NCBI GenBank assembly: GCA_964019415.1
Contig: OZ025888.1
Location: 3,268,536-3,332,535, forward strand
Reading direction: 5' to 3'
From: Ianthella basta
Lineage: Eukaryota > Porifera > Demospongiae > Verongiida > Ianthellidae
DNA length: 64,000 bases
Shown: in pieces, positions 25,238 through 49,027 of the stretch
Numbering within the stretch: the first letter of the stretch is position 1
Layout of the letters: each line of letters starts with the position of its first letter
Notes under the pieces: generated by a model
Databases searched by the model: none
What the model saw: the letters and a program-made list of their open reading frames with translations, nothing else
Told to the model about the DNA's origin: nothing
Program-made: the position numbers and the translations under genes

Positions 25238-28200
25238 ATGCTGAGTCTGGCACTGCAGAGCCTTTTCCGAATGGTCGAGATCTTTGTTCTATTGATCATA
25301 TCGTATCTGGCGTACCGCGTGCTTAGACGGGGCTGGCAGGTGAGTAGCTGGAACTCCATGTCCTGTGATGACGTTGTCGTATTACCGCGCCATTGCCTTG
25401 AGTGGTTGCTAGTGTATGTGTTGTTTCTTGATCTATTACTCCTGTCGACGTATTTGTGTTATATTAAATATTCTTCATTTGCCTTGAGTGGTTAGCTACT
25501 CGGGTCAGGCCATCCTTTCATTCCTCCAGGCAGTCGCTCTCTTTGCCAACTTAGTGGTGGGTAGCAGGTAGGTGTTGCTCTTCACACAGCTGCACTGGCC
25601 CAGCTACAGTTTACGTATGTACGTGTGTCCCACTCAGGTATTGTGGCGTACCGAAGAACAAGCGCTTGAGGGTATTCGTGGTTCCAAGCCACCTCGTGGA
25701 CACGGTGAGTCTAGTACCAGCTAATTAGCTAATTAGCAGGGGACTGTGTGAAAGCATGATCAGGTGAAGCTCGATCATTTGGCTTAGTTAAATGTTCATC
25801 ATTGCATGCGCACACAAACGTGTAGCACAGCATGTGCCACACACTGGTGTGCCCACATTCATACTCATGTCATTGTGCATGCTTTGGTTCCTCACTATTG
25901 CTGGCAATAGACTCCATTGTTCTTGTCTGGAGTTTGAGGTGGTAGGGGCTCATACTATACAGCACCTGAACTGTCCGGTAGCTGTTTTGAGTGAAACATG
26001 TAGCAACTAGAGTACTCATAGAGTACATACCCACATGCTATCTAGCACTATAAAAGCAAAGGTGTGAACTAGGAGATACGTAGGAATGAAAGCATTAAGT
26101 GTAAATAATGTATGACATGTTAGATATGAAACACATGGACACTGGGTTCATACTGTATACATAGTTAATACAGTGCAAGTAACAATAGAATGCAGTGACC
26201 TATGATAAATGTGTAGCTAGCTAATCTGTGTAGCTAACTAGCTTTAGCTTTTCTACCGTAGTGTAAGTGGTGAATTTCTATTTTGTATGTTGGGCAGAAC
26301 AGTCTATGACCATACAGTGTGGAACAGTACCAAGAAGTAGTATAGCTGCCTGCTACATATCCACAATGCGTAGGTATGTAGCTGTCTACCATTTTACATT
26401 CCTGGCAAAAAAATTATAGGTGGCCCAACAGAAAGCATCACTTAGTCGGCAAATGCTGCAAACACCAGTGGTATTGAATTGATTTCCAACAGTGACAACC
26501 CCTATGTGGCGCTTACAGGCAGCGCTGGTGCCTTGATTTTGAGATATGCCGAAATTTGTGACGATGATAACAACAACAACAACGACAACAACAGCAATGA
26601 TAGAACCGATCACTTTACCTATTGTGCAATCGCGCGGAGTAATGACAATGACAAGTTCTCTCAGAGCCCACCAGAGTATCATGTACTTTGAAGTCCTTGA
26701 TTGATGTTTGCATGGTTGGCAATGAATCTCCTGTTGTGAGTGCTGGTACTCTCGGTTTTGGCTTCAGTGATCATCACATTTGTTACTCTTTATTTAACTG
26801 GAAACCAATTCCACCCCCACTCAAGGCGAAGGCCTCCACAATGTACTCTATCTCAATTAGCTCCATCTGCATCTACAAGTGATCTAGTCATCTCTTTTGT
26901 GTTGTCACAACAGTGTGCGTCTTTCATTCAACGTCCTAAGCTATCTACAGGTTGTGACACTGTCAGTCCTAGCTGCTCCTGAGCACCTTAGTGTGCCCTT
27001 GTCCTCCATCATTAACAGTGCTATTTCACAGGAACAATTTCCATCATTGTAGAAATCAGCTATTGTTCATCCATTGCACAAAGCTGGTCCCACTGATATT
27101 TGTACGAACTATCGACCTATCTCAATCCTTCATGCTGCCAGTAAAGTTATGGAATTGTACGTTGCTGTTCTACTCAAAGCTCACCTGGAACACAACAACT
27201 TACTGTACGCACTACTATTAGGTTTTAGACAAGGTCATTCCACACAATTCCTTCTGCTCAGGCTCACAGACTCCTGGTACAAATTTTTGAACAATGGTGA
27301 CTATGTTGGTGTTGTGCTCTTGATGCCTATAGGTGGTTCTTTGTGGTGAGCATTTCATATTCCAATGCTCCAAAGATGTGCAATATGCATAATATAATGT
27401 ATGCCCAATAGTCAAATACTTTTTGACCAATCAGATTCAAAGATGAAACTTAATTGAATCTGATTGGCCACTGCATTTACTTGACCATGCAGTCCTGACT
27501 ATACGTGTCACTGCTCAAACTCAACTACTTCTCCCCACACAATGCAATAGGATATAGGAGTACTTTGTGTGGCATTTGCTATTCCAGATGTGCATCTTGT
27601 TGACTTGTTATTGGCACAAGGAATGCACTCTTGTTTCCTACCTATACACACAGGTGACTACTAATGAGGTGTTCAACCTTGTGAATTCAGTGACTGAAGG
27701 GAGATCAGTGAAGTATGTTTATACCATCATAATTCACACTTGAATTCAAAACCTGTCACTTAGGAAGTGTCCTTATCTCCCTTCATGTCATGCATTGCAC
27801 TGTAGTGTTGACTACCTCCACAAGAAAATGCGAGAGTATCAATACACATTTTTGTACCGAGACTGCATGGATGGCTCACTAAGAGGTCTCCTGATGGGCA
27901 GTGCAGAGAATCTGGAGCGCGATGGCAAGAAGTTTGGTTTAATTACAGTGAGAAGACCTGCATATGCACACATTCCATATAGTACACCATCTGCTACAAT
28001 GTGTTTAAATCCTACTGGCAGCTGTCCAACCTTTATACATGTGTCTCTGCAGCTGTTGTTTATGCAAATTTGTACCTGTTTCCTGTAATATTGTGTACTC
28101 TTGTATAAACAGGCAGCTTACAGCATTCTCTCCTCATTTCCACCTTCTTCAGTACCGGTTCTAATCTTAGCCTCTCCCTCACTGTCTCATTTCTGACATG

Positions 28201-31200
28201 GTCCAACCTACTGTACACACACTTGCAATCTTGCTCAGCACCCTCATCTCCGCTGCCTGTATCTTAGGCTTTTCCCTTTCCTTTAGAACCCATGACTCAC
28301 ACCCATATGTTAGTGTTAGAACAGCCACTGCTTTGAACACTGCTACTTTGCTAGTCATAGTTAAATGAGGCTTTAATAGGTAGCTATGTAAAGGGCATGA
28401 TTAAAGTTTACTTCACCCAATTTCTCTCCTGGCATCCTGTAATGTGCTATTGGTTGATGGTTTCTGCACCTCTTTACTGTGTATGTGTACCTACCTACCT
28501 GCAGCTTGGGATAGGCTACTTTGACAAGGACTACACTGGAGGTCCTCTACTGTCTGCCACTAGTCTGTACTACTGCATGAAGCAGTTGGTCCTCCACCCA
28601 TTCACACCTCTGTTTGTCCGAGGTTCCACCTTCAGCTACATGTCCTACTCGGTAGGTCACCTGCATGCCTTGTCACTCTGGCACTTATTTTGCATGCATT
28701 GATTATGTTACAGTACATCTTTGGAGTGGGCCTATAGTCTTTAGAGCAGTTTAGCTGTCAACAGCTACTCTACTATCAATGGTTATTTTGTAGACTATCT
28801 AATAATATTCCTCCTTTTCACTGCATGGGTGAATTGAAAAGTGGACATGCATCCTTTACAGCCTTAATCCATGTTTGGAGTAGATGTCAGCATAGGTGTG
28901 GCTTGTTTCACCAGCTGGAGAGTTGGAATCCATCCACTTCATGGGTAGCTTCATTGTTTGCTTTCTGTAACATTCTGGCAGGCTCGGATGATTTGGGTTC
29001 ATTGCCACATGTCTTGATATACTTTATTAGCTGACTGTGCAAAGTGTATTGCACGCGCGTACATTATTAATCACACAAGTCTTGCAAACCACCTGCTTGC
29101 CACATGGCAGCTGCTGGCCAGTAATCTTTAATCAGTATACAGTAGAGAGGATGCACTACTGCAGTAACATCTGAAAAGGATGGTGAACTGCAACTGTGAC
29201 TGGCTGTGTAGCCCTCAGTGATATCATTTATATATACCTATGTGAAGTGGCCACCTGCACATAACAATGCCTGTACTGTAACCACAGAGTCACACTCCTT
29301 AGCCAGCAATGTGAGTGGCACAGTCCTTCGCTCTATATACAGCCAATACCTAATTATGAGGTTGCTGATGACGCAATGCAAAAGCAACGAGTGATATTAA
29401 ATTATGATGCAACCACCTTTGTGAAGTAATAGGCCCAAAGCCTTCAGGCCTGACTGTGGGTATTTAAGACATTAAACAGGTTGCACTGCATTAGTGGTTC
29501 TCGTAGTACAGCTCTAATTGGAATTTGCTGCTTTCATACTTGACATCTCTCCAGTACATGGCTGCTAACTTCACCACCTTCTACCCGAGACATGACAGTA
29601 CAATTCCACCCTTTGAAAAGAGGTGAGTGGCAGGCAGTGTTGATGCTGGTAGTTACTGGACTGAGTGTGTGCACACCACAATTTCAAAGAATGAAAGCAT
29701 TTTAATCGAATTATTTATTGTCTCCAGCCATCTGATAATCAAACATTTGCATAGTATTAATACATGCAACTTGTCTTTCATGCATAATTGATGTGGCAAT
29801 GAGTCTATGTCCTTGCCCATGTACTCATAATGATAGCCACAGCTGGTCATCCAACCTTGTGGGTCTCATGCACTAGATGTTCCTGTGGTTTTACAGTTTG
29901 ACCGCAGGAATGTGGTATGTCTAGTACATGAGACTACATACCTCGCGGGGAAGGTCAGCTACGTATGCCTGAGTAAGTTATCATTCATGAATTACATGCA
30001 GGATGGGCAACTTGCAAGACTCATGCACACTGACAAACTACTTTGTGCATCTTCTTTCAGTAGCAGATAAAGATAATCTTTACAAAGCCAACAGGATCAG
30101 TTCTTTCAAAGAAATTTCCCAACAATCTGTCACAAGCAGTTTGTCCAACACCGTGCACTATGTGCTTCCAGGAAGCAGTCTGAGACTCATTCACATTGGG
30201 AACCTGTCTGGATATCTGGGCAAGAACACATGCTGAAGTCTCTGCATACAAGTAAAATGACTGAGATGCAAACGAACTATTATCGACATAGTTCTATAAT
30301 GCCAGCCGGCCAGTCTTGCCAAATGAGCTCTTATGGAGCCACGGCAATGAGAGCTGTTAGTGTGTGATATGAAGCATACACAGCACTCACCCTGCCACGT
30401 ACACTAAGAGGTCTCAGGAAGGGAACAAATGACCATGGCCAGGCTGCGCTATAGTAATTGTAGAATCGTATTTCTTGCTTACCGATGCATCTTGTCTGCT
30501 CTCATCTCCTCTTTGCACATCATGCCCATCCCCACCCATGCATGCATTTCAAGCATTGGGTATGCTAACTGTGTACATTTGTTGCCTCACAAGCTTCTGT
30601 ACCTTTGCTGTCATCTTAAGTGGCTAAAATATACATGTAACAAAATTCACCTCATTCCTTTGCGGACTCATGGATTTGGTCCACCCATATATCATGAGAC
30701 TTATTCTTGTTAGTTAGCTCCCTACCACCATAGCAGTAGTTACCAGACACCCGGAGTGCATAAGAGAAGCCTACCTCCAACTGTATACCTCATGTCATGC
30801 ACAGGTAGCTGTAAGTGGATGTGAGGCATATTCCCCATCAGTTGAGTCACTTCATAGAGTATACCTTGGATGGTAGCCAGTTACTCAATCGAACTGCTGT
30901 TATAGTAACCAAAGGCTTTGGCTTTGTTCCTTTGCATAAAAGCTCACATATAGCACAGTAATTCCCTGTCACTGTGTGATATATACTACTCTGTTGAGAA
31001 TATTATTGCCCCTGCCATTAATAGCATATCACTTTAGTATAAGAAACAGCTGAAAGTGACCGTACATAGCTATGAAATAATTGTTTCCACACATTACAGG
31101 CTTACAGCAGAAGGTGTTACTGTAGGGATTGATTCTTATCGTGGTGATGTTGATCCACATTGTTTATTCATCCAAGCTTCAGTTTCATGTCTTGTTTTGC

Positions 31201-32462
31201 ACACAGTTTAATAGATGAAGAAGGAAGTAAGTTTGAAAATTACATTCCTGAGAAGTGTGTTTCAGAAAGGGATGGATCACGTCTGCAGCAGTACGTGGCA
31301 CCAATCACTGACGAAAAGCTGAAGAATCCACACACAAGGTTCTTCCATGAGAGAAATCCTGGCTGGATGAAGGTTTGTGCACCACGACATGGAGAGGGAA
31401 CATGCATGCACACTTGTTACCTGTACTTGCATAATCACCACTGCACATGGAGAGGGTACCTCTGTAGTATATAATATTATGAGCTGTTAAGTTGCTTCCA
31501 TTTTACTGATTCCAAGAGGTGCACTAAATCTGTTTTAGCTCTACTACCTGGAGGTATTTACTGCTGCTGCTGTTTGTAATACTTAGCAGGGGTATAGAAA
31601 CACAAATGAGTACAGACATTTTCCGGTTGGTTGTCCACACCGGGCACCAGGTACCGGAGTTGAAATCATGGTATTATACATAAACATAAGCAGTATTGCT
31701 GTATAAAATCTCTAGCTCACAATCTATGTCAACACTAGATTTTGCAATTATACTGTAAGTATGTGTACGAATTCGTATAGTATTGTGCAAATGTCTCCCA
31801 GATGCTGGTACTGGTGTGAAAAAAAGTGATTCGAAAATGTCTGTATATGCAATGCCACTAATCTTCAATGCTTGTTATGTAGTTTTGACTCATCATGTCT
31901 CCTCCAAATTTTCTATGTGTGCATGCAGGGTCATGTAATGATTGTTCTGGCAGAAGTAAAATGGAGAGATCTCCTCACTATGTGCGGGACTATGCTGAAG
32001 AAAACTGTCCAGCAAAGCAAGCATGTGGGCAAACGTTTAAGGTATGGATCCAGAAGAAGCTTGAGCTACTTTAGAAGTGAGCAAGCGTACCTGAAACAAG
32101 AACAAACTGAGTCTGATGAGGAATCAAGGTTAGCATTTCTGTAATGCTCTAACATGAACTTACAGCATGTTTGATACATAATGCATGAATTTCTGTCTAA
32201 CAGTGTTACATGAAGTTCATTGCAAATTAATTTGGCTTCTTATTCCAGCGATCTTGCAGATGTTTTTCACAGCAACCGTCCTGGCAGTTTACACTTGGAG
32301 GATGTGCCTGAAGATGAGTGTGATGGTGCAATGAGTGATCTGAAAAAATCTGTTGCAGGCACTCAGCGCAAGCACAACTACATCACAAGGACACAATCTA
32401 TTGCTCTGGGAGTGGATCGCATTGATGACTATTCAAAAGTAGAGATAACAACACCCCCTTGA
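25238..32462 (+). CDS. Copy A: uncharacterised membrane-anchored protein, 400 residues
   Basis: Ten exons: 25238-25339, 25530-25567, 25638-25704, 27654-27712, 27806-27947, 28505-28651, 29555-29622, 31207-31372, 31929-32128, 32249-32462. All have GT-AG borders and consistent phases, 1203 nt. The N-terminus has one hydrophobic segment (IFVLLIISYLAYRVL, about residues 14-29) followed by RRGW, suggesting a type II or III membrane anchor. The soluble part has conserved blocks: KKNKRLRVFVVPSHLVDT, EYQYTFLYRDCMDGSLRG, GYFDKDYTGGPLLS, FSYMSYSYMAANFTTFYPR, ENYIPEKC, NPHTRFFHERNPGW and GHVMIVLAEVKWRDLL. The C-terminal tail is charged and Ser-rich, ending YSKVEITTPP. The family is not recognised. The central order of blocks vaguely recalls an acetyltransferase (GNAT) fold, which is speculation. 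Two paralogs lie next to it. Confidence 0.85.
26650..27345 (+). mobile_element. CR1/L2-type LINE fragment in copy A intron 3
   Basis: Plus-strand frames encode SDHHICYSLF, HKAGPTDICTNYRPISIL and GFRQGHSTQFLLL, standard reverse transcriptase blocks (NYRPISLL; GFR.GHST). Both ends are missing. The right edge, near 27345, coincides with the start of the segment shared with copy C. Confidence 0.8.
28100..28375 (-). mobile_element. LINE fragment inserted in copy A intron 5
   Basis: The minus strand reads MTSKVAVFKAVAVLTLTYGC then ESWVLKK, the 'LYGCEtW' region near the C-terminus of RTE/CR1-type LINE reverse transcriptases. Copy C lacks this piece at the matching place. Confidence 0.65.
29897..29972 (+). 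other. Cryptic or poison exon candidate, 76 nt, in copy A intron 7
   Basis: A 76-base segment is bounded by ttttacag and gtaagt, both good splice sites, and is preserved in copy C at about 42751-42826 (minus strand). Inserted between exons 7 and 8 it would read SLTAGMWYV and then a TAG, so inclusion would end the protein early. It is not part of the coding chain used here. Confidence 0.4.
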
Positions 32463-32559
32463 GCAATACAATCAGGCTGTTGACCTATGACGTGTGTGAA
32501 GCTTTTGAAAATATTATAATTTTATAAGTGTGTTGTCACTTTTGCGTGATGGTCAGAAA

Positions 32560-33200
32560 GACCGCTTTTGCTAGCACCCATTTCCATACAAGACTTGTGC
32601 GTATGTGACTATTAATTTTATTGTTTATTGTGTACATAATACTATGCACCCACATTATGTGTTAGCATCTTGAAGACTGTTGATTTGCATACATGAGGTT
32701 GCTATACATGTACCAGCATGCCAAGCAAGTGGACCATTAGGCCTAGCTAGGGGCTCCGACAATGGGATGAGCTGCCAGAAGAGCCAGCTAAGGCAGATAC
32801 CCTCAACATGCAGCCATCAATGATTATGTTATCATTAGCCGATGTCAGTGGGGCTGCCCTCGCAAGATCCCACTCAGAGCCAATTGGCATCTGCCTATCT
32901 GATGGGAAACGACCAGATGGAGCCATATGCCATGCACTGTCATGCCGTGGAATATATAGATATGTGTGTGCAACAGATCTATAGAGAACTATGTGGAGTC
33001 AGCCTTGTGGTATAGGCCTAGGAGGCCCTAGAAGCAGCACAGATCCTCGCAGGCTGACCACCCTTTCCGATTTAATCTGGAATGTGGTCTCCACCACATC
33101 TATGGGAACCTTAATTACGAATTAATTACGCCGGTGACGACGTCATTTCCGAGCGATACGTCGGAAGCTTCGCATTTCACTTGAGCCACAGTGATACAAC
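32560..33200. other. Intergenic with retroelement scrap; copy B promoter region at its end
   Basis: At 32780-32980 the plus strand has EPIGICLSDGKRPDG, recalled from the same kind of retroelement C-terminal region as at 24280. The segment 33120-33200 is CpG-rich (acgacgtcatttccgagcga) and lies directly before the copy B leader, so it may hold that promoter. Confidence 0.4.
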
Positions 33201-33276
33201 TGGCTAGTTGCGTGTACATGCAGGCAGCTTGGACTCAGAGGAGAAGAGTGAGCGAATCTCCAGATTTCGAGGCATA

Positions 33277-36200
33277 ATGTTAGGCTCCATACTCCAGTGG
33301 GTCTGCCTAGAGGCTGAGATTCTCGTGAAGTTGGTCTTATTGTATCTGGCGTACGGCGTGCTTAGACGGGGCTGGCAGGTGAGTAGCTAGCACTCTATGT
33401 CCTGTGGTGACGTGGTCGTATTACCACGCCATTGCCTTGAGTTAGTGTTGCTTGGGCAGGTCGAGGAATGACTGCTGTCTCCTTCCCTTCCTTCAGGCAG
33501 CTCAGGAAGTCGCTCTCTTTGCCAACTTAGTGGTGGGTAGCAGGTAGGTGTTGTTCTTCAAACAGCTGCACTGCTCCGGCTACAGCCTACGTATGTATGT
33601 GCTGTCGTACTCAGGTATTGTGGCGTACCAAAGAACAAGCGCTTGAGGGTATACGTGGTTCCAAGCCACCTCGTGGACACGGTGAGTATTCTAGCAGGTT
33701 TGCTTGGAAATGTTTTAGACGCGAGTGTCACCAAAAAGCTCCGAGGGTAAAATTGACTGCCACTGGCTAATTCTTCATCACAGTGTTGGGGGTTAGTCGC
33801 AGGAATCATGTCTACAAGGAAGTTTGAAGCCCCAATTACAGAAGATAAGAGCATTCAGGACAGGAAAGCCGTAGCTGCATGTCACCTGCGCTACTCCTAG
33901 CCAGCTAATCTCAACGCGTTGGACATATCTGAAGGCAACACTGCTACATTAGTGGTGTTTTCTGTTGTTAGGTACCATTATGCAAGGTGCATTATGCAGC
34001 ACCTGGTATCTCATCATCTTCATCATCATCATCATTAGAACACAATCCCCGAAACACATATGGGGGGCATTCATACAAGAGAAATTGAGCTTTAGTATAA
34101 TTATATTATCATACTAGGTTAGATACTATAGAGTAATCTAAGGATTACTACTACTGGAATGTCTACATCTTGGCATCCATCAGTAAGCATCGCTCCATTG
34201 CTTTCTTGGTCTCCCTCTTGGTCTTTTCCCTGGTACAACTCCATTCATTACCATCTCTGTAACAATTGCTTCTCTTCAAAAGATTCTCTGTAATAGATTG
34301 GCTCTATCATTGCCTTGTACACCGGCATGCATCTGCACTTCTACTCAATTCTCTGCTCTCAAAAACTTGGCTTCTGACTGCCCCCACTGCGCTTAAAGCT
34401 GCACCAATTGTCTTCTCCAACTCACACTCTATTCTCCCATTCTCACTCAGAATCACTCCCAGATATATTTACTCCCCTACATACTCCAGTTTCCAGTCAT
34501 CTACCTCTACTCTCTACAATCCACCTGCTTCCTACTAAAACCATCGATTGTTGTTGGCTTTTCCGTGTTTATTGCCAGTCTATGACGCTTCACCACTTCA
34601 CTGAACTCTTTACCATTATGTTGCAGATCTTCTTCCGTCTCAGCAAGGAGGACTGTATCAACTGCGATCCTTAGGAGTTGCATTGTACACTTGTCCAGTC
34701 TGACTCTTCCATTAAACTGAGCCCTTGCTTCTCGGGTCATCATGTCCAAAAAGACATTGAATAGCAATGGGAATATATAGGAGACATCCTTGCCTCACCC
34801 CCTGCTGCACCTCAAAACATTCTGTCAGTTCATCTTCCACTCTCACCCTGGCCTTGCTGTTTTCGTACAGGGCTTTCACAGCTCTCAGAAGTCTGCCTGA
34901 CACTCCATATGTAGCTAAAGTCCTCCACATACTTTCTCTCCACACTTTGTCATAGCAGCCCCTGGTAATCATTGTGAAAATTAGAGGTCTACACAAAGTT
35001 TAGAGTCACCCAAGAGTCCGAAATTTTAGAACATTTCAAGGCAAGACTGTGGAAAGATTGTGAAAATTAGATTTTCAGATTTTTTGAAGATTTACGGTAT
35101 CATGTAGAATGGGCAATGGCTATCATGAGGGCAATTTTAAAGCCAGTCTTTTTTAGCTCAGTAAATATAGAAATAGCATTAGCTGTGCTTTAATAATTGT
35201 ACTGATAGACAAAGGCCAGCACATGCTAAGTTGCCCCCAGCTCTAGGCTATATAGCTAGTGTTGGGAAAGTACCAGTTGGTGTCAGAAAAGTACTGGTCA
35301 TTGTTGTATAACCTAAATTGGTATTCTGAATACAATTATCCATTGTGCAAGGACACCACCATGTTGGAAGAGCTAGAGCTACATAGTCATGTTCATGGAC
35401 CATGCCCAAACAAGTGTGGGCTGGTGTGCATATGACATTATGCACAACACACCCATTATATCTTATTATATTTAGAATTAATTGAAATTTTCTACAAAAA
35501 TAATAAGGATGTAGGGATGGCACAAAAAGTACAGAAACAAGTAAAGGCTGTTACACAGTGTAGCATTAGCCATCGCCCCTACATAGATTGGGCATATGTC
35601 AGTATCATGGTTGTTTAGTGTGCAAGAGGTAGAGTGCTGTGTATTCTGCCTATACACTGGTGTCCGACACATTGTTTTGATTGCCTCATGTCCCGGGCCT
35701 GTCTGTTAGGTTATGCTGTCCTGTGCTCTGGACACTCAGCTACAGATCTAGATAGAGGCCAGAACAGGATGGAAGAAAGTCTAGTTTAGGGCCAGATAGA
35801 CTGCCAACTAGACACTGTGCTTGGTGCTGCCTCCAATCATTATCCAATCATTACGTGTTTCTGTACACTGCGAGGTCACATGCAAGCTTAACACCTGGAA
35901 GGCAGTGACCACGGCACTAGGTGCTAGCGCCACCACCTGCCTTATAAGGAAAGCATTAGTTAGCGTCAGTCCCGACTTCCTCAGAATCTGTCAGGAAAAA
36001 GCTGGTGTTAGCTCCCAATCATCTTTTAGGAGGGCATACGTAGTCATGTACAAATGGCGGTCTGGGGATGCAAGACTAAGTGCTAGCTACATTATGCAGT
36101 GCAATGGAAGAGGTGTGTGTGTACGTACGTACACGAAGTGCACTTCCTTTCTATACACAGGTGATTACTCGTGAGATGTTCAGCCTTGCAAATACAGTGA

Positions 36201-38225
36201 CTGAAGGGAGATTAGTGAAGTATGTTCGTAACATCATTATTCACACTTGAAATTAAAACCTGTCACCTGGGAAGTGTCGTTGCCTCTCTTCATGTCATGC
36301 ATTGCACTGTAGTGTTCAGTATGTGCACAGGAAGGTGCAAGAGTATCAGTACGTATTTTTGTACCGAGATTGCATGGATGGATCACTAAGAGGTTTCCTG
36401 ATGGGCAGTGCAGAGAATCTGGAGCGAGATGGCAAGAAGTATGGCCTGATAACGGTATGTCGTTCTTGTGGAAAGTCTTGTACCAGTATAGCTTCCTAGT
36501 GCAGCTTGGGGATAGAGTGACAGCTCTAGCGTGAGAGCCCAGTCACACATGTCTGGGATACTGAAGTGTACAGGCTTCCAACGGCAGCTCACTAAACAAT
36601 GTCACATAAGAGAATTGCGTCTTTACCATTGCTGACACTTCATGTGCACCTCTTGATTTGTACCTACCTACCTACCTACCTACCTGCAGCTTGGGCTATG
36701 CTACTTTCAAAATGACTACACTGGAGGTCCTCTACTGTCTGCCACTAGTCTGTACTACTGCATGAAGCAGTTGGTCCTCCACCCATTCACACCTCTGTTT
36801 GTTCGATTTTTCGTCTACAACTACATGTCCTACTCGGTAGGTTGTCTGCCTGTCTTAAGTCACTCTGGTATATACGTCTATGCACTTCAACACACTGACA
36901 TATGCTGACAAGTGATTGGGTGGGAAGTCCAAAACAATTACCAAATTTTGTCCATACAGTAATAAATCTGCAGGTGGCCACTTGTATAAGGCACAGAAGT
37001 CGTGACTCACATTAGTGAACAAATGTATAACATATAATATAGCACCTACATAGGAAGTTACGGGTGTGCAGCAAACAACTCAAGATCAAGCAGCAACCAG
37101 TGAAGCTGAAAATATGGGTTCCTCCCAATTGTCATGGACAATGGCATATAAACTAGTCATAACCAATGGTCTCGGATGTCCACCAACGTTTAATTAGAGC
37201 CTTAGGCTTGTGTTATGTGGTGAAAGTCCTCGCTCCTGTGCTATTGCCAACATTTATTACACAAGTAACCTTGGAAATATGTACCTGTGACATGAGGCTG
37301 CTGCTTGTTTGTTTTATGTTTCTCCAGTACTTGGCTGCTAACTTCACCAACTTCTACCCAAGATATGACAGTACAATTCCACCCTTTGAACAAAGGTGAG
37401 TAGCACGCAGTGTTGATGCTGACAGCTAACAGTGTGCATGTGAGTGTGTGCATGTCAAATTTCCTCCACATAGTTCGTCCAGAATAGTGGCATTGAGCCA
37501 TAATAAACTGTGTTTTCACCCACTTGAATAATCATTGCTTTCTAAGCTCTAGCATGCATGGGTGTGAGAGTAGTATGCAAGTACTGTACCACTGCATGGT
37601 AAGGTGCCTGGTTGTGGGAGCTGTTATATACTGTATGCGGCATCATGATCATATTACTGACCACCTTCTATATCATGTCGTCGTCTACTATTTCTTGCAA
37701 TACCATGTACTGTGAACACTACATCTTCAATCTGGCTAATATCCAGTTTCACTTACTGTAGTGTCTACTTTGCAAACAGTTTAATAGATGAAGAAGGAAG
37801 GAAGTACGAAAATTACATTCCTGAGAAGTGTGTAGCAGAAAGGGAAGGATCACAACTGGAGCAGTACGTGGCACCAATCACTGACGAAAAGCTGAAGAAT
37901 CCACACACAAGGTTCTTCCATGAGAGTAATCCTGGCTGGAATGAGGTTTGATTGTCATAACATGGAGAGGGAACATGTATGCACACCTGTTACCCACTTA
38001 CATAATCCCCCATCCATCACATGTGTGCCCCATTAGATTACTGTAAATGGTAGTTGAACGTCATTATTTAGTATAATTTACTGGTACACCAAACTCTGTA
38101 CATCTCCCTATACCTGCACTTCTCTCGATGTATACATGCAGGGTCATGTACTGGTTGTGCTGGCAGAAGTGAAATGGAGAGATCTCCTTATCATGTGCTG
38201 GAGCCAATCAAAGCATGCAGTGTAG
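33277..38225 (+). CDS. Copy B: paralog of copy A, C-terminally truncated (293 residues)
   Basis: Exons 33277-33378, 33497-33543, 33615-33681, 36161-36219, 36313-36454, 36690-36836, 37328-37395, 37780-37945 and 38142-38225 match copy A exons 1-9 in size and phase (exon 2 is 9 nt longer, as in copy C). The anchor is LLYLAYGVLRRGW. After KWRDLLIMCWS the sequence departs from copies A and C at about 38207, reads QSKHAV and stops at 38223-38225. The Ser-rich tail exon 10 is absent from the following 2.4 kb. Exon 6 differs from A and C in its last third (RFFVYNYMSYS for RGSTFSYMSYS). All splice sites are intact, so a short protein is possible, but it may be a decaying copy. Confidence 0.75.
34009..34960 (-). 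mobile_element. LINE insertion in copy B intron 3, with target duplication
   Basis: Minus-strand frames encode YDKVWRESMWRTLATYGVSG, RLLRAVKALYENSKARVRV and VQQGVRQGC, then LLAETEEDLQHN, a reverse transcriptase core. The 3' end carries a (GAT)n-type tail at 34009-34035. CCTGGTA stands on both sides (34002-34008 and 34961-34967), and copy C has the same site once, empty, at 48040-48046. It is 5' truncated and frame-broken. Confidence 0.85.
36657..36686. repeat. (TACC)n tract forming the polypyrimidine tract of copy B exon 6
   Basis: About seven TACC units end in tacctgcag, the acceptor of exon 6 at 36690. Copies A and C have only two or three units. Confidence 0.85.
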
Positions 38226-38715
38226 TCTCTATTACTGGATGTACAAGATCTTATACCACTGCCTAGCATACACACTCGTGCTTCTCATCAATCCAGAAAG
38301 ATGTAATTTATACACAGTGGATACTAAGACCATGTCTGTAGTATTAGTTGAATTATAGCATATAAATATGATCTGGCCTTACATATATTAGTGGAATGTA
38401 TTGTTATAATAATTTGTCATGCAATCTATAACATAGCAGGACTACGTGTGATACCTATGGGTATATGCACCAGCCTCATCATGTCCATACTAGTTCCAGA
38501 GCAAACTATGAATAATGCTGTATTTTCTGCAGCTAGTGCAATTTAATTGCAGACCTTGAAAGCATGATGAGGTGTATGTACGTAGCAGCTGCAGCTTTAG
38601 AGCTGCCTTCTATACTGCTGTTGCTTCCTGCCTAAACTTCACTTTACAGTTAGGGCCTTACATTACAGCCAGTGAGGTGAGCCACAGTCACTAAAACTTA
38701 TGAATTGTGCAAAAG
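38226..38715. other. Spacer after copy B, nothing recognised
   Basis: AT-rich sequence between copy B and the dispersed repeat; no copy A-like exon 10 was found here. Confidence 0.4.
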
Positions 38716-38719
38716 TTTT

Positions 38720-39230
38720 TTTACAGTGAAACCTGTCCGTGTTGATCACTGTGCAGGCAACCACCTAGCTCAATAGAACAGCCAGCCTCCCTCAGACTCA
38801 AATTGCACAAGCATAGCATTAAAGCATTGCAATCTACCTCTGTAGTGAACCACCTCTCTACAAGATCAGCTACAACTGGCCCACAGGTGGCGGTCTTAGA
38901 CAGCTACATAGCTACACATAGGCTCCACTGTATTAGTCTTACTCTCAATCTATTGTATGATCAGGATACAGTATGGAGACTTTGATTCACTTCCACCATG
39001 TTGTTTAATCTTACTGCAAAACATCAATGAAGTATATTAAGGATCTTGTGCACTGTATGCCCAATACATGATGTACGTACTTGTGCCTTAAACTGTATGA
39101 GCGCCATACGTATGTATATTTGGTATCCACTACACTAGGCTTGTACCCAGACTGCTTCAATTGCCTCTATTTTAACATGATAAAGCCAGCTACTAAGTAC
39201 ATGCACCTTATCATAATAGCTCCTCATGCA
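38720..39230. repeat. Dispersed repeat, copy 1 (partner at 55115-55990)
   Basis: The run from acagtgaaacctgtc to catcaatgaagta at 38720-39035 and the block around ggtatccactacactaggct (39120-39180) recur in the same order at 55115-55530 and 55915-55985. A third, partial copy sits at 55545-55720. No coding potential. Confidence 0.8.
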
Positions 39231-39234
39231 CAAG

Positions 39235-40635
39235 GTCTGCAATTAAGTTGCACTGCGGAACATGCAGCATTATTAATAGTTTGTTCTGGAACTAATATGG
39301 AGGATCTATTAATGGCAGTGGTCCAGTGGCAGTCTGCATATGTAGCTGGTGCATATACACCAATAGGGATCACAAGTAGTCCCATGCACTATTATTATAA
39401 TATTATAAATTAGACGAAAGTAAAAAACATTGTGGGGGCAAGCGGGAGTATCCAGGGACATGTGGGTAAAATAGTGGCTGAGATAGCAGGATGAGCAGTA
39501 AGGTATGCAAGACAGTGTACATGTCCTGCCACGAAGTGCGAAGTCACCCATGAAGGCCGGATGCATAGGTGGCATGCACTGTGACCATAATTATGTTTAG
39601 CACCTGACTGGGGTGTGGCTTGGAAATTTGCCTACTTGACACTGTATTGAGCAGCTGCTAGCTGGAATGCCCAGAGACGACAGAAGCTATTGTGAACTGT
39701 ATACATAGCTATGTGTGTGTATGTGTGATAGTATGTATATTGGAAGAAGTCACATGACTGTGATGGCCAATGTTGCAGGTGTCAGCCAAAATTTCTGGTG
39801 CATGCTGAGAGTCATTAGAGTGATTAGTAATTATAAGCAAACACAACTTCATGAAACTCAAAAGGAAAAAGGAACAGCACATGCATGGACATGTGTGAAG
39901 TTAATGTCCAAGGAAGTGGCATTACTGTCCTGTTTGCGCCTCACCCGCACTCCTGTTATGAGCATGCTGTCCAGGCTATTCCTAAGTGAACGAGAACTAC
40001 AACCTTTGGCCTATATACTGACAGCATGCAAGCAAAGAGTAAAACAAACCCTGACGCCTCTAGCTAGGCCTACACTGCTCACCTATGTAGCAGCGCTGTG
40101 CACAGGCACGTACACATCCAGACAGACCCATCGCTAATTAACAGATGTACCCATCGCTTTTGTGGCTGCAGCACTGTTTAGCAGTATCAGCAATTTGGTG
40201 AAGTGCACGTCAGCCGTCTGACCAGCCACATGCAGGTGTAGTGCAAACCTCTAGTCATGTGCAGGCGTTGCACAAGCCTGTGGTGTGTCAGCACCCACGT
40301 GCACTGCGCATGTGCAATGGTCCAAAGAACCAACAAACCATGGAGTGGACGCGATGTACCACGACTTCTACAACGTACTATGTTTTCCAGTTTCACACCA
40401 CCCAGAAGAGAGAGGCTTCACGTCACTCGCCCCTATTTATTGCATGTGCCCATGCATATGCATTCCACTTAAATAATGCCAGATCAATCTTATACATTAT
40501 GATTCTGAATCAACTAATACCACAGACGCGGCCTTAGCATCCACTATAATACTATGTCCTTCTGGATGAGAATCATGAGTGTGAAATGATATAAAATTTC
40601 GTATCTCCAACACTAGAGACTACACTGCAGCTTTG
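39235..40635. other. Spacer between tail-to-tail copies B and C
   Basis: Several short frames exist (for example 39715-40137) but none has splice support or a motif. No RNA gene or inverted repeat was recognised. Confidence 0.35.
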
Positions 40636-40641
40636 ATTGGC

Positions 40642-43600
40642 TCAAGGTGTTGTTATCTCCACTTTTGAATACTCATCAATCCGATCCACTCCCAAGGCAA
40701 TGGACAATGTCCTTGTGAAGAAGGATTTCTTGGACTGTTTATGAGTGTCTGCAACAAACTTTGAATTCTTCAGATCCCTTGGTGCACCATCATAGTCTTC
40801 AGAGTCTTCAGGGATATCCTTCAGGTGCTGACAGCAATGACTGTTGATCTGAAATAGGTCTAGGTCATTGCCCACGCCACTGCTGCAGTGAGAAGACAGC
40901 TGCCAATAACATATAATACCATCAACCATGCACGATCAACCAATAGCAATACTACATGTACTGTATGCTAACCTGTATGCCTTCTCTGACTCAAGTTGTT
41001 CATGTTTCCGGTATTCTTGCTCAGTTACAAAGTGGCTCACACTCCTCCTGGATGCTAACCTTGAACGCTTTAAGGTGCCCACACGCTTGCCTTTCCAGAG
41101 AGCCTTCTTCAGCATACTCCAGCACATGATAAGGAGATCTCTCCATTTCACTTCTGCCAGCACAACCAGTACATGACCCTGCATGTATACATCGAGAGAA
41201 ATAGTATAGGGAGATGTACAGAGTTTGGTGTACCAGTAAATTATACTAAATAATGGCATTCAACTACCATTTACAGTAATCCAATGGGGCACACATGTGA
41301 TGGATGGGGGATTATGTAAGTGGGTAACAGGTGTGCATACATGTTCCCTCTCCATGTTATGATAATCAAACCTTCTTCCAGCCAGGATTTCTCTCATGGA
41401 AGAACCTTGTGTGTGGATTCTTCAGCTTTTCGTCAGTGATTGGTGCCACGTACTGCTGCAGACGTGATCCATCCCTTTCTGAAACACACTTCTCAGGAAT
41501 GTAATTTTCAAACTTCCTTCCTTCTTCATCTATTAAACTGTGTGCAAAGTAAGACACGAAACTGAAGCTTGGATGAATAAACAATGTGGATCAACATCAC
41601 CACGATAAGAGTCAACCTTCTGATGTAAACCTGTATGGTATCAAAACAATTATTTTGTAGTTATGTATGGTCACTTTCAGCTGTTTCTCATACTAAAGTG
41701 ATATGCTATTAATGGCAGGGGCAATAATATTCTCAACAGAGTAGTATATACCACAAGGGAATTACCATGCTATATGTGACCTCTTATGTAAAGGAACAAG
41801 GCCAAAGCCTTTGGTTACTATGACAGCAGTTCAATTGAGTAACTGGTTACCATCCAAGATATACTCTATGAAGTGACTCAACTGATGGGGAATGTGCCTC
41901 ACATCCACTTACAGCTACCTGTGCATGACATGAGGTATACAGTTGGAGGTAGGCTTCTATATACGCACTCCGGGTGTCTGGTAACTACTGCTATGGTGGT
42001 AGGGAGCTAACTAACAAGAATAAATCTCATGATATACGGGTGGACCAAATCCATGAGTCCGCAAAGGAATGAGGTGAATTTTGTTACATGTATATTTTAG
42101 CCACTTAGGATGACAGCAAAGGTACAGAAGCTTGCGAGGCAACAAATGTACACAGTTAGTATACCCAATGCTTGAAATGCATGCATGGGTGGGAAATGGG
42201 CGTGATGTGCAAAGAGGAGATGAGAGCAGACAAGATGCATCGGTACGCAAGAAACAAGATTCTACAATTACTATAGCGCAGCCTGGCCATGGTCATTTGT
42301 TCCCTTCCTGAGACCTCTTAGTGTACGTGGCAGGGTGAGTGCTGTGTATGCTTCATATCACACACTAACAGCTCTCATTGCTGTGGCTCCATAAGAGCTC
42401 ATTTGGCAAGACTGGCCGGCTGGCATTAGGGAACTATGTCGATAATAGTTCGTTTGCATCTCAGTCATTTTACTTCTATGCAGAGACTTCAGCATGTGTT
42501 CTTGCCCAGATATCCAGACAGGTTCCCAATGTGAATGAGACTACTTCCTGGAAACACATAGTGCACAGTGATGGACAAACTGCTTGTGACAGATTGTTGG
42601 GAAACGTCTTTGAAAGAACTGATCCTGTTGGCTTTGTAAAAATTATCTTTATCTGCTACTGTAAGAAGATGCACAAAGTAGTTTGTCAGTGTGCATGAGT
42701 CTTGCAAGTTGCCCATCCTGCATGTCAATCATGAATGATTACTTACTCAGGCATATGTAGCTGACCTTCCCCGCGAGGTATGTAGTCTCATGTACTAGAC
42801 ATACCACATTCCTGTGGTCAAACTGTAAAAGCGCAGGAACATCTAGTGCATGAGACCCACAAGGTTGGATGACCAGCTGTGGCTATCATAATGAGTACGT
42901 GGGCAAGGACATAGACTCACTGCCGCATCAATTATGCATGAAAGGCAAGTTGCATGTATTAATACTATGCAAATGTTTGATTATTCAGATGGCTGGAGAC
43001 AATAACTAATTAGATTAAAATGCTTCATTCTTTGAAATTGTGGTGTGCACACACTAAGTCCAGTAACTGCCAGCATCAACACTGCCTGCCACTCACCTCT
43101 TTTCAAAGGGTGGAATTGTACTGTCATGTCTTGGGTAGAAGGTGGTGAAGTTAGCAGCCATGTACTGGAGAGATGTCAAGTATAAAAGCAGCAAACTCCA
43201 ATTAGAGCTGTATTACGAGAACCACTAATGCCAACCTGTTTAATGTCTTAAATACCCACAGTCAGGCCTGAAGGCTTTGGGCCTATTACTTCACAAAGGT
43301 GGTTGCATCATAATTTAATATCACTCGTTGCTTTTGCATTGCGTCATCAGCAACCTCATAATTATGTATTGGCTGTATATAGAGCGAAAGACTGTGCCAC
43401 TCACATTGCTGGCTAAGGAGTGTGACTCTGTGGTTACAGTACAGGCATTGTTATGCACAGGTGGCCACTTCACATAGGTATATATAAATGATATCACTGA
43501 GGGCTACACAGCCAGTCACAGTTGGAGCCCACCACCATCCTTTTCAGATGTTACTGCAGCAGTGCGTCCTCTCTACTGTATACTGATTAAAGATTACTGG

Positions 43601-46600
43601 CCAGCAACTCCAATGTGGCAAGCAGGTGGCTTGCAAGACTTGCATGTGTGATTAATAATGTACGTGCAAATTTACACTTTGCACAGTCAGCTATTAAAGT
43701 ATATCAAGACATGTGGCAATGAACCCAAATCATCCCAGCCTGCCAGAATGTTACAGAAAGCAAACAATGAAGCTACTCATGAAGTGGATGGATTCCAACT
43801 CTCCAGCTGGTAAAACAAGCCATACCTACGCTGGCATCTACTCCAAACATGGATTAAGGCTGTAAAGGATGCATGCCCTCTTTTCAATTCACCCATGCAG
43901 TGAAAAGGAGGAATATTATTAGATAGTCTACAAAATAACCATTGATAGTAGAGTAGCTGTTGACAGCTAAACTGCTCTAAAGACTATAGGCCCACTCCAA
44001 AGATGTACTGTAACATAATCAATGCATGCAAAATAAGTGCCAGAGTGACAAGGCATGCAGGCGACCCACCGAGTAGGACATGTAGCTGAAGGTGGAACCT
44101 CGGACAAACAGAGGTGTGAATGGGTGGAGGACCAACTGCTTCATGCAGTAGTACAGACTAGTGGCAGACAGTAGAGGACCTCCAGTGTAGTCCTTGTCAA
44201 AGTAGCCTATCCCAAGCTGCAGGTAGGTAGGTACACATACACAGTAAAGAGGTGCAGAAACCATCAACCAATAGCACAATACAAGATGTCAGGAGAGAAA
44301 TTGGGTGAAGTAAACTTTAATCATGCCCTTTACATACATAGCTACTTATTAAAGCCTCATTTAACTATGACTAGAAAGAATGACACTTTTCTACAAAAAC
44401 TGCTCAAGATGCAGGGCTGGCATAAAAAGTACAGAAACAAGGAAAGGCTACTACACAGTGAAGCATTCACCATTGTCCCTACATTGAAGAGTGTTGCACT
44501 ATATAGTACTACACTCTTGCATGTAGGGACAATGGTGAATGCTCCACTGTGTAGTAGCATTCCTTGTTTCTGTGCTCTTTATGCCAGCCCTACATCTTTA
44601 GTAGCTTTGTAGACAATCTTTATTCTTTCTAGTTTCTGCACTTTTATGGAGCATATGCTCAAATGTGATACATTGCCGCAACCACAGGACAGGAATGCAA
44701 GTATAAGGTCCTCATGTTTTTATTCTGGAGTGGAACAGAAGTAGCAGCTTGAACATAGGCTCTGCATGAACTTAGAAATCTCCACTGGAAGCTAACATAA
44801 AGAAATTGAAATGACGTCCCACTGGCACCATCAACACGGATGTCCTTCTAAATGGCACTGGCTAACGGCAGCTGAAGCTTGTCCTGTATGCACTTGCGAA
44901 CACTCATCTGACTGTGTTGTGGGGCTATTGGCCCAAAACTTATAAAAGAGGACTACAGGCCTGCCACTCTCCCGGATTTTTGGGGAGTCTCACAGTTTTG
45001 CTACTAATCTTACATTCTCATGGGTTAGGTACTCAATCTCATGGAATTTGATTATAGGATAAGCCAACAACCCGTTTCAGGATCAGTGGTGCATACAATT
45101 TAGGACCTAGCCATGTTTTAGCAGTCCAATGACCTATTGAGGGTCATAAGTATTATTTTCTGAAGCTTTGTTGCAGCAGTTCCAGTGACCATTTGTCCAT
45201 CTGCCTTTTTGTTATAACATCACTTTCTGGAAAAATTATCTTCAGACATTTCTTCCCTAAATGTAAACCCCTTTTCTAAACCGTTTTCTTGTCTGTGCAT
45301 GAATGGTATACCATTTGCCAATGTATGGTTCCCCATAAGAACAAAAAATTGCATGCATGCACGTGAAGAAAGTACAATATGAATGTAAAGCTAGCCGGTA
45401 AGCTGGTGCTTGTAAGTAAGGTTAGCTCAGTACATTGTACAGCCTCCCTGCCTCCCTGGCGGTTTCTTTTGTCGGTTCTTGCTTCTGTTCAGGAGTAGCA
45501 TGACTTTTCATTTGTATTACAGCATACAAACACCCTCCAGCAGCCACAGCTGCCATACCAGCTGCCATGACACCAAAACCGGTGTCTAAGCCATAAACAA
45601 CAGCTGCAGAGACACATGTATAAAGGTTGGACAGCTGCCAGTAAGATTTAAACACATTGTAGCAGATGGTGTTCTATATGGAATGTGTGCATATGCAGGT
45701 CTTCTCACTGTAATTAAACCAAACTTCTTGCCATCTCGCTCCAGATTCTCTGCACTGCTCATCAGGAGACCTCTTAGTGAGCCATCCATGCAGTCTCGGT
45801 ATAAAAATGTGTATTGATACTCTCGCATTTTCTTGTGGAGGTAGTCAACACTACAGCGCAATGCATGACATGAAGGGAGATAAGGACACTTCCTAAGTGA
45901 CAGGTTTTGAATTCAAGTGTGAATTATGATGGTATGAACATACTTCACTGATCTCCCTTCAGTCACTGAATTCACAAGGTTGAACACCTCATTAGTAGTC
46001 ACCTGTGTATATAGGTAGGAAACAAGAGTGCATTCCTTGTACCAATATAACAAGTCAACAAGATGTACATCCGGAATAGCAAATGCCACACAAAGCACTC
46101 CTATATCCTACTGCATTGCGTGGGGAGAAGTAGTTGAGCTTGAGCAGTGACACGTATAGTCAGGACTGCAAGGTCAAGTAAATGCAGTGGCCAATCAGAT
46201 TCAATTAAATTTCATCTTTGAATCTGATTGGTCAAAAAGTATTTGACTATTGGGCATACATTATCTTATGCATATTGCACATCTTTGGAGCTTTGGGGTA
46301 TGAAATGCTCACCACAAAGAACCAGACAACATAGCATGGAGGTGGACTGAGTAGTGATATTATGCCAACTGCAAAATAATGAAAATCGCTCGCAGTATCA
46401 ATCTCGCAGTATGCCACTATGCACAGTAGACATTGACCACAGCACAGACATTTCAGCTAGCATACATGACACAGCTGACCATTTTCAGTTGGCACAAATC
46501 TTCTAAGGCACCAAGAACAATGGAAATGTTCTTAGAACTGATGAGGCCCTTCATGGTCATCTTGTTATTTCTCAATGATTTGATTTGATTTCGATTATAA

Positions 46601-49027
46601 GAATGGGACCACATAAATGCAGGCTAATTTATAGGGTTGCTGAAAAAACGTGAACAGTCAACATGTAGTAGCTACTCATACAAAAATAAGACAAAATAGT
46701 CAAAGTTGATAGGATAGAATACAGTGCATATGAATTTTAGTAACAAAATTAAGTAAATGGCAACTCAGAATGCCTGAATGATATGGCAGATTTGCCAAAA
46801 TTAGTGTGAACCTGTTTTATATATAAGGGAAGCATTAATTATTGTCAGTCCCGCCTATGTAGCCTGTACAAATAGCAGCCTGGCTATGCAAGACTAGCTA
46901 GCACTGAGGAAGACTGCATGGGCAATATCGGTACTAAAGGCCATTATCACACAAGAAATAACATAAAATATACAAGAGGGGGCGGTTGCTTGCAGTTGCC
47001 ACTACTACTTACCCTGCACTGAATACTAGGGCATACATATAGATAATGCAATAGGCCTCGCTGCGGCCGCTGATGACGTCATCAAAATGGCCGCTCCTAC
47101 GCGATGGAAGAAACTAGCCTACCGACTGGCACAGGCAAGCTTTGGCCAACAAGGAGATTCTTGCTGTGCAACCGCCATCTACTTATTTGGTCCTTACCAG
47201 GGTAGCCCCTCCCTGTTCGTTAACACAGTGCGCGTGTTGCGCTTCACCCTCGCTGGAGCAACGGGCGACGTTAACGACAATCTGAACGCGGTGTGCAGCA
47301 ATGAAGCGGAGTGTTATGTTGAGCAGTTTCGTGGCCGATGGTGGCGAAGTAGAGCGGTTTGTTGTCGTGAGCGCCTGCGGAGAATACCGGGCTATTGCAC
47401 AACTTAGGTGTCGCGGGTTAACTGGGACGGATATACATAATTTTATATGTATGCAAACGGGGGACAACAACGCGGATCGCGATTACTTGCCTCGCCTTCG
47501 GCTCGGCGATAAATGGAATACAATGAACCAGTGCCAATGAGACGTGGCTTTGCACAATAATGTTGCCTGTCAATAAAATTACAATTATGTCATGGGTGTG
47601 TTGTGCATAATGCCATATGCACACCAGCCCACACTTGTTTGGGCATGGTCCATGAACATGACTATGTAGCTCTAGCTCTTCCAACATGGTGGTGTCTTTG
47701 CACAATGGATAATTGTATTCAGAATTCCAAATAGAGTTTACTTTTCCCAATACCAATTGGTACTTTTCCCAGCACTAGCTATATAGCCTAGAGCTGGGGG
47801 CAGCTTAGCATGTGCTGGCCTTTGTCTATCAGTACAATTATTAAAGGACAGTTAAGGGCTACTTCTATATTTACTGAGCTAAAAAAGACTGGCTGCTCTC
47901 ATGATAGCCATTGCCCATTCTACATGATAAAGTAATCTTGTAAAATTTGAACTTTCCAAAGTCTTGCCTTGAAATGTTCTAAAATTATGAATTCTTGGGT
48001 GACTCTAAACTTTGTGTAGACCTTAATTTTCACAACAGTTACCAGGTGTTGCAAAATGCACCTTGCAAAATAGTACCTAACAACAGTAAACACAACTAAC
48101 GTAGTAGTGTGACCTTCAGATATGTCCAATGTATTGAGATTAGCTGGCTAGGAGTAGCACAGGTGACATGCAGCTACGGCTTTCCTGTCCTGAACACTCT
48201 TTCCTCAGCGGCCCATATAAAATCTTCTGCAATTGAGGCTCCAAACTTCCTTGTAGACATAATTCTTGTGACTAATGCCTGACACTATGACGAAGAATTA
48301 GCCAGTGGCAGTCAGTTTTTCGCTCGGAGCTTTATGGTGACACTTGTGTCTGAAACATTTCCAAGTCATCAAACCTGTTAGAATACTCACCGTGTCCACG
48401 AGGTGGCTTGGAACCACGTATACCCTCAAGCGCTTGTTCTTCGGTACGCCACAATACCTGAGTGGGACATGTACAGCATACGTAGGCTGTAGCCAGAGCA
48501 GTGCAGCTGTGTGACGAGTAAAACCTACCTGGTACCTAGCACTAAGCTGGTCAAGAGAGTGACTTCTTGAACTGCCTGAAGAAAGGGAAGGAGACAGCAG
48601 TCATTCCTCGACCTGTCCAAGCAACACTAACTCAAGGCAATGGCGTGGTAAGGTAAATCGGGGTAATTTCGTCACTAGGTTAATTACGTCACTCGGGTTT
48701 TGTCTCGACTCTTCTTCCTTCGCGGTGGGCTTTTAGCTCAGCACAACATCGCTGTTTTACAACCTATCTACTGTATTTTCAAACATTAAGCGGGAGTGAG
48801 CGCACCCCTTCTGGATAAGTAGTTGTAGACTCACATGACGGAATTACACCGCTCTCAGTCTGAATAAGTTTAGGAAATTACCCCGGTTTACCTCCACAGG
48901 ACATGGAGTGCTAGCTACTCACCTGCCAGCCCCGTCTAAGCACGCGGTACGCCAGATACAGTAAGACCAACATCACGAGAATCTCAGCCACTCGGTAAAG
49001 CCAGTGGAGTATGAAGCTTAACATCAT
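40642..49027 (-). CDS. Copy C: paralog of copy A, 415 residues, mosaic
   Basis: Exons 49027-48923, 48575-48529, 48457-48391, 46002-45944, 45850-45709, 44216-44070, 43164-43097, 41537-41372, 41178-40973 and 40882-40642 give 1248 nt in one consistent frame. The protein starts MMLSFILHW, has the anchor AEILVMLVLLYLAYRVLRRG, then the same blocks as copy A. Exon 6 is identical in protein to copy A. Exon 9 (GHVLVVLAEVKWRDLLIMCW) is like copy B. The C-terminal tail is longer than A's and ends SIALGVDRIDEYSKVEITTP. For exon 10 the acceptor tctcactgcag before 40882 was chosen because the more upstream cag at 40900 puts a stop in frame. The role is unknown; keeping an intact frame argues for a working gene. 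Confidence 0.83.
42378..42698 (+). other. Conserved antisense ORF in intron 7, function unknown
   Basis: A frame with AETSACVLAQISRQVPNVNE, WKHIVHSDGQTACDRLLGN and FERTDPVGFVKIIFICY is kept in both arms. In copy A (minus strand 30251-30057) it differs by a two-codon indel and a few substitutions, all in frame. It could be shared ancestry alone. No family recognised. Confidence 0.3.
44370..44633. mobile_element. 264-bp foldback (MITE-like) element in copy C intron 5
   Basis: Outer ends actagaaagaa and ttctttctagt, inner arms agggctggcataaa... and ...tttatgccagccct form an almost complete hairpin of about 110 bp per arm around a short centre (actatatagt). Half of a related arm is seen in copy B at 35515-35580. 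The copy A intron lacks it. Confidence 0.85.
44640..45420. other. Copy C-specific intron stretch, nothing recognised
   Basis: This part of copy C intron 5 has no counterpart in copy A (where a LINE fragment stands instead) and no motif was found. Confidence 0.35.
45424..45603 (-). other. Exon-like ORF with a Gly/Ala-rich hydrophobic helix
   Basis: Following an acceptor tctctgcag, the minus strand encodes VVYGLDTGFGVMAAGMAAVA, AGGCLYAVIQMKS and a charged tail to a TGA. This looks like a single membrane helix. It is out of phase with copy C exon 5, which would read LLFMA and stop. Copy A keeps the acceptor and the first 12 bases only. Could be a terminal exon of another transcript or captured sequence. 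Confidence 0.3.
47070..47560 (+). other. CpG-rich island with CRE-like site and short ORFs in copy C intron 3
   Basis: A perfect TGACGTCA stands at about 47074, followed by ATGGCCGCTCC and an open frame to 47407 (MAAPTRWKKLAYRLAQ...). A second frame from 47301 (MLSSFVADGGEVERFVV) ends at a consensus donor gtgagcg. CpG density is much higher than in the flanks. It could be a promoter with a first exon, or a captured element; no family recognised. Confidence 0.35.

Follow-up and report, generated by a model that had tools for sequence, protein, structure and literature searches.

Organization of the locus

A 64,000-nucleotide stretch of the genome of the sponge Ianthella basta (GenBank assembly GCA_964019415.1, contig OZ025888.1, positions 3,268,536 to 3,332,535 of the forward strand), referred to here as the window, carries three copies of a gene, designated A, B and C, which have very probably exchanged internal segments with one another. 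The window lies in our contig C21, and the genome searched comprised 209 Mb in 96 contigs. Self-comparison of the window produced three related blocks, two of them (A and B) direct and the third (C) inverted and tail to tail with B, and this arrangement, described previously in a sequence-only reading of the window, was confirmed by the gene models. The models are predictions built from splice sites (GT-AG introns in A), and the reading frames were open in A, B and C (Table 1). Splice phases were identical across the copies for every common exon, and exons 1 and 3 to 8 were equal in size (102, 67, 59, 142, 147, 68 and 166 bp), as the reading had claimed of the exons generally; sizes differed for exon 2 (38, 47 and 47 bp in A, B and C), exon 9 (200, 84 and 206 bp) and exon 10 (214 bp in A, absent from B, 241 bp in C). 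On their sequences, A, B and C are paralogs. Copy B is short by about 470 bp relative to C, with matches between the two skipping from position 41117 to position 40646 of C, and intron 1 of C exceeds that of B by 229 bp, the additional sequence resembling neither A nor B.

Pairing of the copies along the gene

Copy C had been read as a mosaic of B-like and A-like segments, and uniform identity of C to one paralog, which would speak against this, was not found. Instead, a 100-bp scan along C showed alternation, with the same pairing as an interval alignment of the copies and with three stretches without match (about 48893-48652, 47573-46325 and most of 45591-44378); one interval of the scan within 45591-44378 matched a repeat in B intron 3. 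At its 5' end C resembled B upstream of the gene (92/109 identical positions), in exon 1 (91/102), in intron 1 (109/118) and at the start of intron 3, as had been expected, with the exception of exon 2 and intron 2. Here A and B agreed against C at seven of eight variable sites in exon 2 and at 9 of 19 in intron 2, while exon 3 was nearly uniform in the three copies.

Further along the gene the pairing changed to A with C. Identity between these two was 97.9-100% in exons 4 to 8 and extended to introns 4, 6 and 7 (91/93, 865/898 and 1488/1556), in contrast to intron 9, where it was only 48/86. The reading had placed this A-like segment, introns included, between about 46330 and 41500; its start was recovered at 46324, but its end lies at about 41370 and non-homologous inserts in intron 5 interrupt it. 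In intron 8 the pairing returned to B and C (187/193). This had been expected to continue through exon 9, but could be followed only as far as position 41117, beyond which B is truncated by its deletion and weak matches of C to A, and then to B, were obtained.

The change from A-like to B-like sequence in C took place within 8 bp, between 41374 (last A-like site) and 41366 (first B-like site, in intron 8), and coincides with the exon 8/intron 8 junction, in agreement with the switch predicted near exon 8. At this 3' border a sharp boundary that is unexplained by insertions or deletions was thus observed. A second switch had been predicted near 46330. The A-like stretch does begin close to that position, but the switch point itself is not visible, as C is unlike both other copies from 47573 to 46325 and the 5' border is masked by repeats and unmatched DNA.

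Table 1. Gene copies, matching segments, inserts and further paralogs. Positions are those of the window unless a contig is named.
Feature	Position	Strand	Remarks
Copy A	25238..32462	+	10 exons, 400 aa; spliced model, open frame, GT-AG introns
Exons of A	25238-25339, 25530-25567, 25638-25704, 27654-27712, 27806-27947, 28505-28651, 29555-29622, 31207-31372, 31929-32128, 32249-32462	+	
Copy B	33277..38225	+	9 exons, 293 aa, without C-terminal part; spliced model
Exons of B	33277-33378, 33497-33543, 33615-33681, 36161-36219, 36313-36454, 36690-36836, 37328-37395, 37780-37945, 38142-38225	+	
Copy C	40642..49024	-	10 exons, 414 aa; spliced model
Exons of C	49024-48923, 48575-48529, 48457-48391, 46002-45944, 45850-45709, 44216-44070, 43164-43097, 41537-41372, 41178-40973, 40882-40642	-	
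Deletion junction in B	38198..38203	+	Exon 9 fused to former 3' untranslated region; 3-bp GAG common to both sides
C segment like B (upstream, exon 1, introns 1 to 3 start)	47574..49167	-	C-only stretch 48893-48652 within; exception exon 2/intron 2
C stretch unlike A and B, which agree (exon 2, intron 2 start)	48515..48560	-	10/11 informative sites; putative A-B exchange patch
A side of the A-B patch, exon 2/intron 2	25530..25637	+	
C segment like A	41374..46324	-	Corresponds to A 27334-31370; broken by heterologous insert in intron 5
C segment like B (intron 8, exon 9 start)	41117..41366	-	
Repeat in A intron 3	26005-26645	+	
Retrotransposon fragment in A intron 3	26660-27322	+	Stops 12 bp before start of A-C homology (27334)
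A-only insert in intron 5	28065..28349	+	Unmatched stretch 28065-28347; holds repeat fragment 28117-28349
C-only insert in intron 5	44370..45591	-	Non-homologous 45591-44378; dispersed repeat about 45535-44370, inverted repeat at end
Paralog D (locus L016)	contig C16:257016-260585	-	10-exon model, same phases
Paralog E (locus L017)	contig C16:137800-139555	+	Model from exon 4 on, same phases

Tests against chance

The clustering of informative sites was tested on exons 1 to 8, introns 1, 2 and 4, and the opening columns of intron 8 (70) and exon 9 (60); introns 3, 5, 6 and 7 and the remainder were left out as they could not be aligned three ways. The 191 informative sites formed 54 runs, as compared with 118 (standard deviation 6.4) when shuffled, and none of 20,000 shuffles reached 54. 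When exon sites alone were considered (n=115), 33 runs were obtained versus 63, again with 0/20,000 shuffles. A GENECONV-like fragment test on 194 variable columns of the same set, with 5,000 permutations, gave a significant longest matching fragment in every pair (0/5,000 permutations each for A-B, A-C and B-C). These fragments ran from exon 2 to intron 2 for A-B (9 columns), from exon 5 to exon 7 for A-C (21 columns, or from intron 2 to exon 8 when mismatches were allowed) and from intron 8 to exon 9 for B-C (18 columns).

Synonymous divergence and relative age of the segments

Synonymous divergence (dS, Nei-Gojobori) was determined for exon groups 1, 2-3, 4-8 and 9-10. For A-C the values were 0.58, 0.04, 0.02 and 0.47, for A-B 0.66, 0.04, 0.17 and 0.38, and for B-C 0.09, 0.12, 0.16 and 0, the last group comprising 14 sites in both comparisons with B. 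Permutation of codons showed dS to be heterogeneous along the gene for A-C (0/5,000) and A-B (22/5,000).

Mismatches in introns were counted in alignable blocks only, with one aligner under three scorings, which gave identical counts for the blocks used. B and C differed at 82/934 positions in introns 1 to 3, A and C at 118/3138 in the core introns, and B and C at 6/193 in intron 8. The 5' introns of B and C were more diverged than both the A-C core (p = 7e-9) and B-C intron 8 (p = 0.005), while no difference was found between the latter two (p = 0.84). For one and the same pair of copies, an old segment is followed by a young one, in intron sequence and at synonymous sites alike, which indicates exchange after duplication.

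Proposed explanation and points against it

In ectopic gene conversion, a broken copy is repaired with another copy as template. Repeated ectopic (interlocus) conversion among A, B and C, mostly in the core exons, is in our judgement a highly probable account of these sequences, and we consider it more likely than crossing-over, simple duplication or assembly error. The trio would be a three-copy paralog family exchanging internal segments repeatedly, starting from B and C as the closer pair and A as the older copy. At least three tracts would be involved, one between A and C reaching from intron 3 through exon 8, one between B and C from intron 8 into exon 9, and one, in exon 2/intron 2, between A and B. 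As the A-C core and the B-C intron 8 tract abut within 8 bp and are indistinguishable in divergence, they may represent one repair episode in which the template was switched at exon 8 or next to it. Exon 1 with the region upstream and exons 9-10 would have escaped, and A would have kept diverging from B and C at these ends.

The earlier interpretation of gene conversion or recombination therefore stands insofar as it requires paralogs to have exchanged sequence after duplication, given that divergence within a pair changes several-fold along the gene. It is not supported in taking C as the sole mosaic, since A is nearly as good a candidate, nor in taking the inverted orientation as the cause, since the direct pair A-B also has a patch, nor in assuming a single alternation, there being at least three tracts.

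A number of observations weigh against this explanation or against parts of it. B-C dS is homogeneous across the exons (2,401/5,000 codon permutations), so that the coding sites by themselves do not require C to be a mosaic. The 5' block shared by B and C is uneven, with mismatches at 2/76 positions in the intron 1 piece, 10/70 in intron 2, and 37/330 and 33/458 in the intron 3 blocks. Lone discordant sites occur around the 3' switch, positions 41516 and 41376 of C being B-like before it and 41363 A-like after it, and the left end of the A-C tract is hidden by repeats in A and unmatched DNA in C. The breaks in the repeats of A at the tract borders, described below, would fit A as recipient, contrary to the slight preference for transfer from A to C. 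Finally, no sign of GC-biased conversion, an accessory rather than a defining sign, was seen on comparison of introns 6-7, as GC was not raised in the A-C tract (0.425 in both A and C for introns 6-7 with exon 7, against 0.411 and 0.422 for B introns 6 and 7 and 0.447 for the window).

Repeats, inserts and the direction of the probable A-C transfer

The stop point of the retrotransposon fragment in A intron 3 falls inside the reverse transcriptase domain, as judged by a related copy (L043, RVT_1). The repeat fragment in A intron 5 falls short of three other copies at both ends, and its right end is the border of the tract. For both of these repeats of A, the copies elsewhere (three each) continue past the points at which they stop in A. 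The right end of the repeat in C intron 5, on the other hand, appears from comparison with three other copies to be natural. At the end of this dispersed repeat lies an inverted repeat (44370-44633) which is 86% identical to its own reverse complement over 266 aligned bases. Different dispersed repeats also start in B intron 3 (35473-36084) and C intron 3 (47513-47023), at or about 60 bases past the end of B-C similarity.

After removal of 70 bases from each end, introns 5 to 7 of B showed no similarity to A or C above that of 40 shuffles each, although A and C do match one another. When these B introns were searched in the genome, all six candidates were scored and consisted of exons of the family itself and two 130-base matches of 72% on contig C3; they do not look like dispersed repeats. 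Introns 6-7 of A and C (7/7 candidates scored) matched strongly only each other, the remainder being B exon 7 and four short weak matches. As the 5' introns of B and C differ by only about 9%, while B introns 5-7 are unlike those of C, the core introns of C look imported, that is, transferred from A.

Comparison with paralog D gave limited polarity. In exons 2-3, where six residues have A and B agreeing against C, D sided with C at three and with A/B at one, which suggests that A and B share the changed state. In exons 4-8, with 35 residues where A and C agree against B, D had the A/C residue at 12, the B residue at 5 and neither at 18, a result that says only that B would be the more changed copy. 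At silent sites D was unusable for polarizing the A-C tract (dS at least 1.5 in exons 4-8). In dS, A was heterogeneous against both other copies and C was not, which favours transfer from C to A. A third possibility is that the core introns of A and C were already homologous and that the tract ends fall where inserts break homology. Overall, transfer from A to C is only slightly preferred.

Alternative explanations

The alternative to be taken most seriously is the same process running in the opposite direction, in which A received introns 3-7 and exons 4-8 from C and exchanged exon 2 with B, B and C being plain sisters along the exons. This version is a real possibility, though we consider it somewhat improbable. 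It accommodates the heterogeneity of A against both other copies together with the homogeneous B-C dS. It would also explain why a retrotransposon fragment in A is cut 12 bp before the tract and a repeat is cut at 28349, where the tract resumes, when copies elsewhere continue and the C repeat has an apparently natural end at this border. If the core of C were native and sister to that of B, however, B introns 5-7 should be about 90% identical to C, and the trimmed introns did not rise above shuffles, nor do they resemble dispersed repeats. Under this version a further event would have to be assumed in B. Formation of C in one step, as a chimeric inverted duplicate of pieces of B and A by template switching with no later conversion, has the attraction that a single event covers both the inversion and the mosaic, and it fits the indistinguishable divergence of the A-C core and B-C intron 8 tracts. 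It is nonetheless very unlikely, as the 5' introns of C are more than twice as diverged from B as its core is from A and so are not of one age with it, and the A-B patch in exon 2 is left unexplained.

Repeated conversion was also weighed against two explanations that involve no exchange. The mosaic was read from the assembly, in which sequence of A or of its other haplotype might have been misplaced in C. We regard such an artefact as very unlikely: the window contains no N, and a genome-wide protein search showed only these three genes and two paralogs on contig C16, with no leftover haplotype copies. The matched tracts also differ by 3-4% and frames and splice sites are intact across the junctions, which does not look like a chimeric join. 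Unequal constraint could in principle make some segments alike without any exchange, and residues invariant in all five proteins do lie mostly in exons 4-8. The signal, however, is present at synonymous sites and in introns, where A-C introns 6 and 7 contrast strongly with intron 9, and of the explanations weighed here we give this one the least credence.

A broader view, which we put forward tentatively and think doubtful as a whole, is that the trio forms one exchanging unit. The core (exons 2-8) would have been repeatedly homogenized, at times as exon-sized patches between copies whose introns have lost homology, while the N-terminus with the promoter and the C-terminal tail were kept different, and the two youngest tracts would stem from one repair event with A and then B as template.

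Comparison with known systems

The locus is a further example of a well-known process, and the mechanism itself is not new. In the guppy LWS opsins, as described in the relevant part of PMC2527612, S180 and P180 lie tail to tail and A180 is a hybrid, and the authors state that the inverted arrangement might have helped. The likeness to the present locus lies in the tail-to-tail pair and the hybrid third copy; the guppy account is of one hybrid with two parents, whereas here all three pairs take part, in at least three tracts that are 3-9% diverged. Among the Caenorhabditis paralogs covered by the portion of PMC3966223 considered here, conversion takes place between adjacent copies in both direct and inverted orientation, as it would here. 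It affects mostly exons, with one case extending into introns, and fog-2/ftr-1 have a common core and a different end. Some of those cases have evidence from natural isolates or mutant lines, while the present one is drawn from one assembly.

The inverted-repeat gene pairs of C. elegans are similar in that, according to the passages of PMC1803023 drawn on here, opposite homologous genes are alike over part of their length with the rest diverging. They differ in that their arms include intergenic DNA and three species were compared, as opposed to one genome here. The mammalian pairs BMP8A/B, DDX19A/B and TUBG1/2, in the sections of PMC2720389 that treat them, have consecutive exons and introns homogenized and other regions diverged, and BMP8A/B is inverted; the raised GC of their converted introns was not seen here. 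As judged from the sequence, what is distinctive of the present locus is that all three pairs exchange and that the ends are spared.

The wider family and the identity of the protein

When protein A was searched against the whole genome (E up to 1), 35 matches were obtained, all within A, B and C or the two paralogs D and E, which lie about 117 kb apart on contig C16 and are, by sequence comparison, older members of the family. The core could be aligned across the five proteins, with most of the invariant residues falling in exons 4-8, and a motif near the C-terminus, in the part that is absent from B, was common to A, C, D and E. A long tandem array of approximately 25-bp units was spotted by eye directly 5' of exon 4 of E (L017:1500-2650).

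No known family was assigned to the protein. Pfam scans of A, C, D and E gave no family (best E 0.26), an NCBIfam scan of the five members gave none (best E 0.058), and a PDB search returned no solved structure (best E 0.054 with A and 0.91 with a five-sequence profile); these weak matches are taken as chance. In one scan of bacterial and archaeal genomes, two peptide patterns matched 243 stretches, none of them a relative. The core may resemble a GNAT acetyltransferase fold; no GNAT family was among the Pfam matches of A, C, D and E. From its sequence, exon 1 looks like a membrane anchor.

Other features of the window

A 609-aa open reading frame with a reverse transcriptase domain (RVT_1) is located at 50400-52229 on the reverse strand, and a second, shorter RVT_1 frame at 61351-61827 on the forward strand. 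An open frame with a Vta1 C-terminal domain was found at 21572-22138 (forward strand), and long CA/GT dinucleotide runs at 6476-6648 and 15768-15923.

Significance

Conversion between neighbours in direct and in inverted orientation can be compared here within one compact locus. A single gene tree of A, B and C would be misleading, as exon 1, exon 2, exons 4-8, and intron 8 with exon 9 pair differently. Should selection be responsible for the sparing of both ends, the family would show which parts of an uncharacterized protein may differ.
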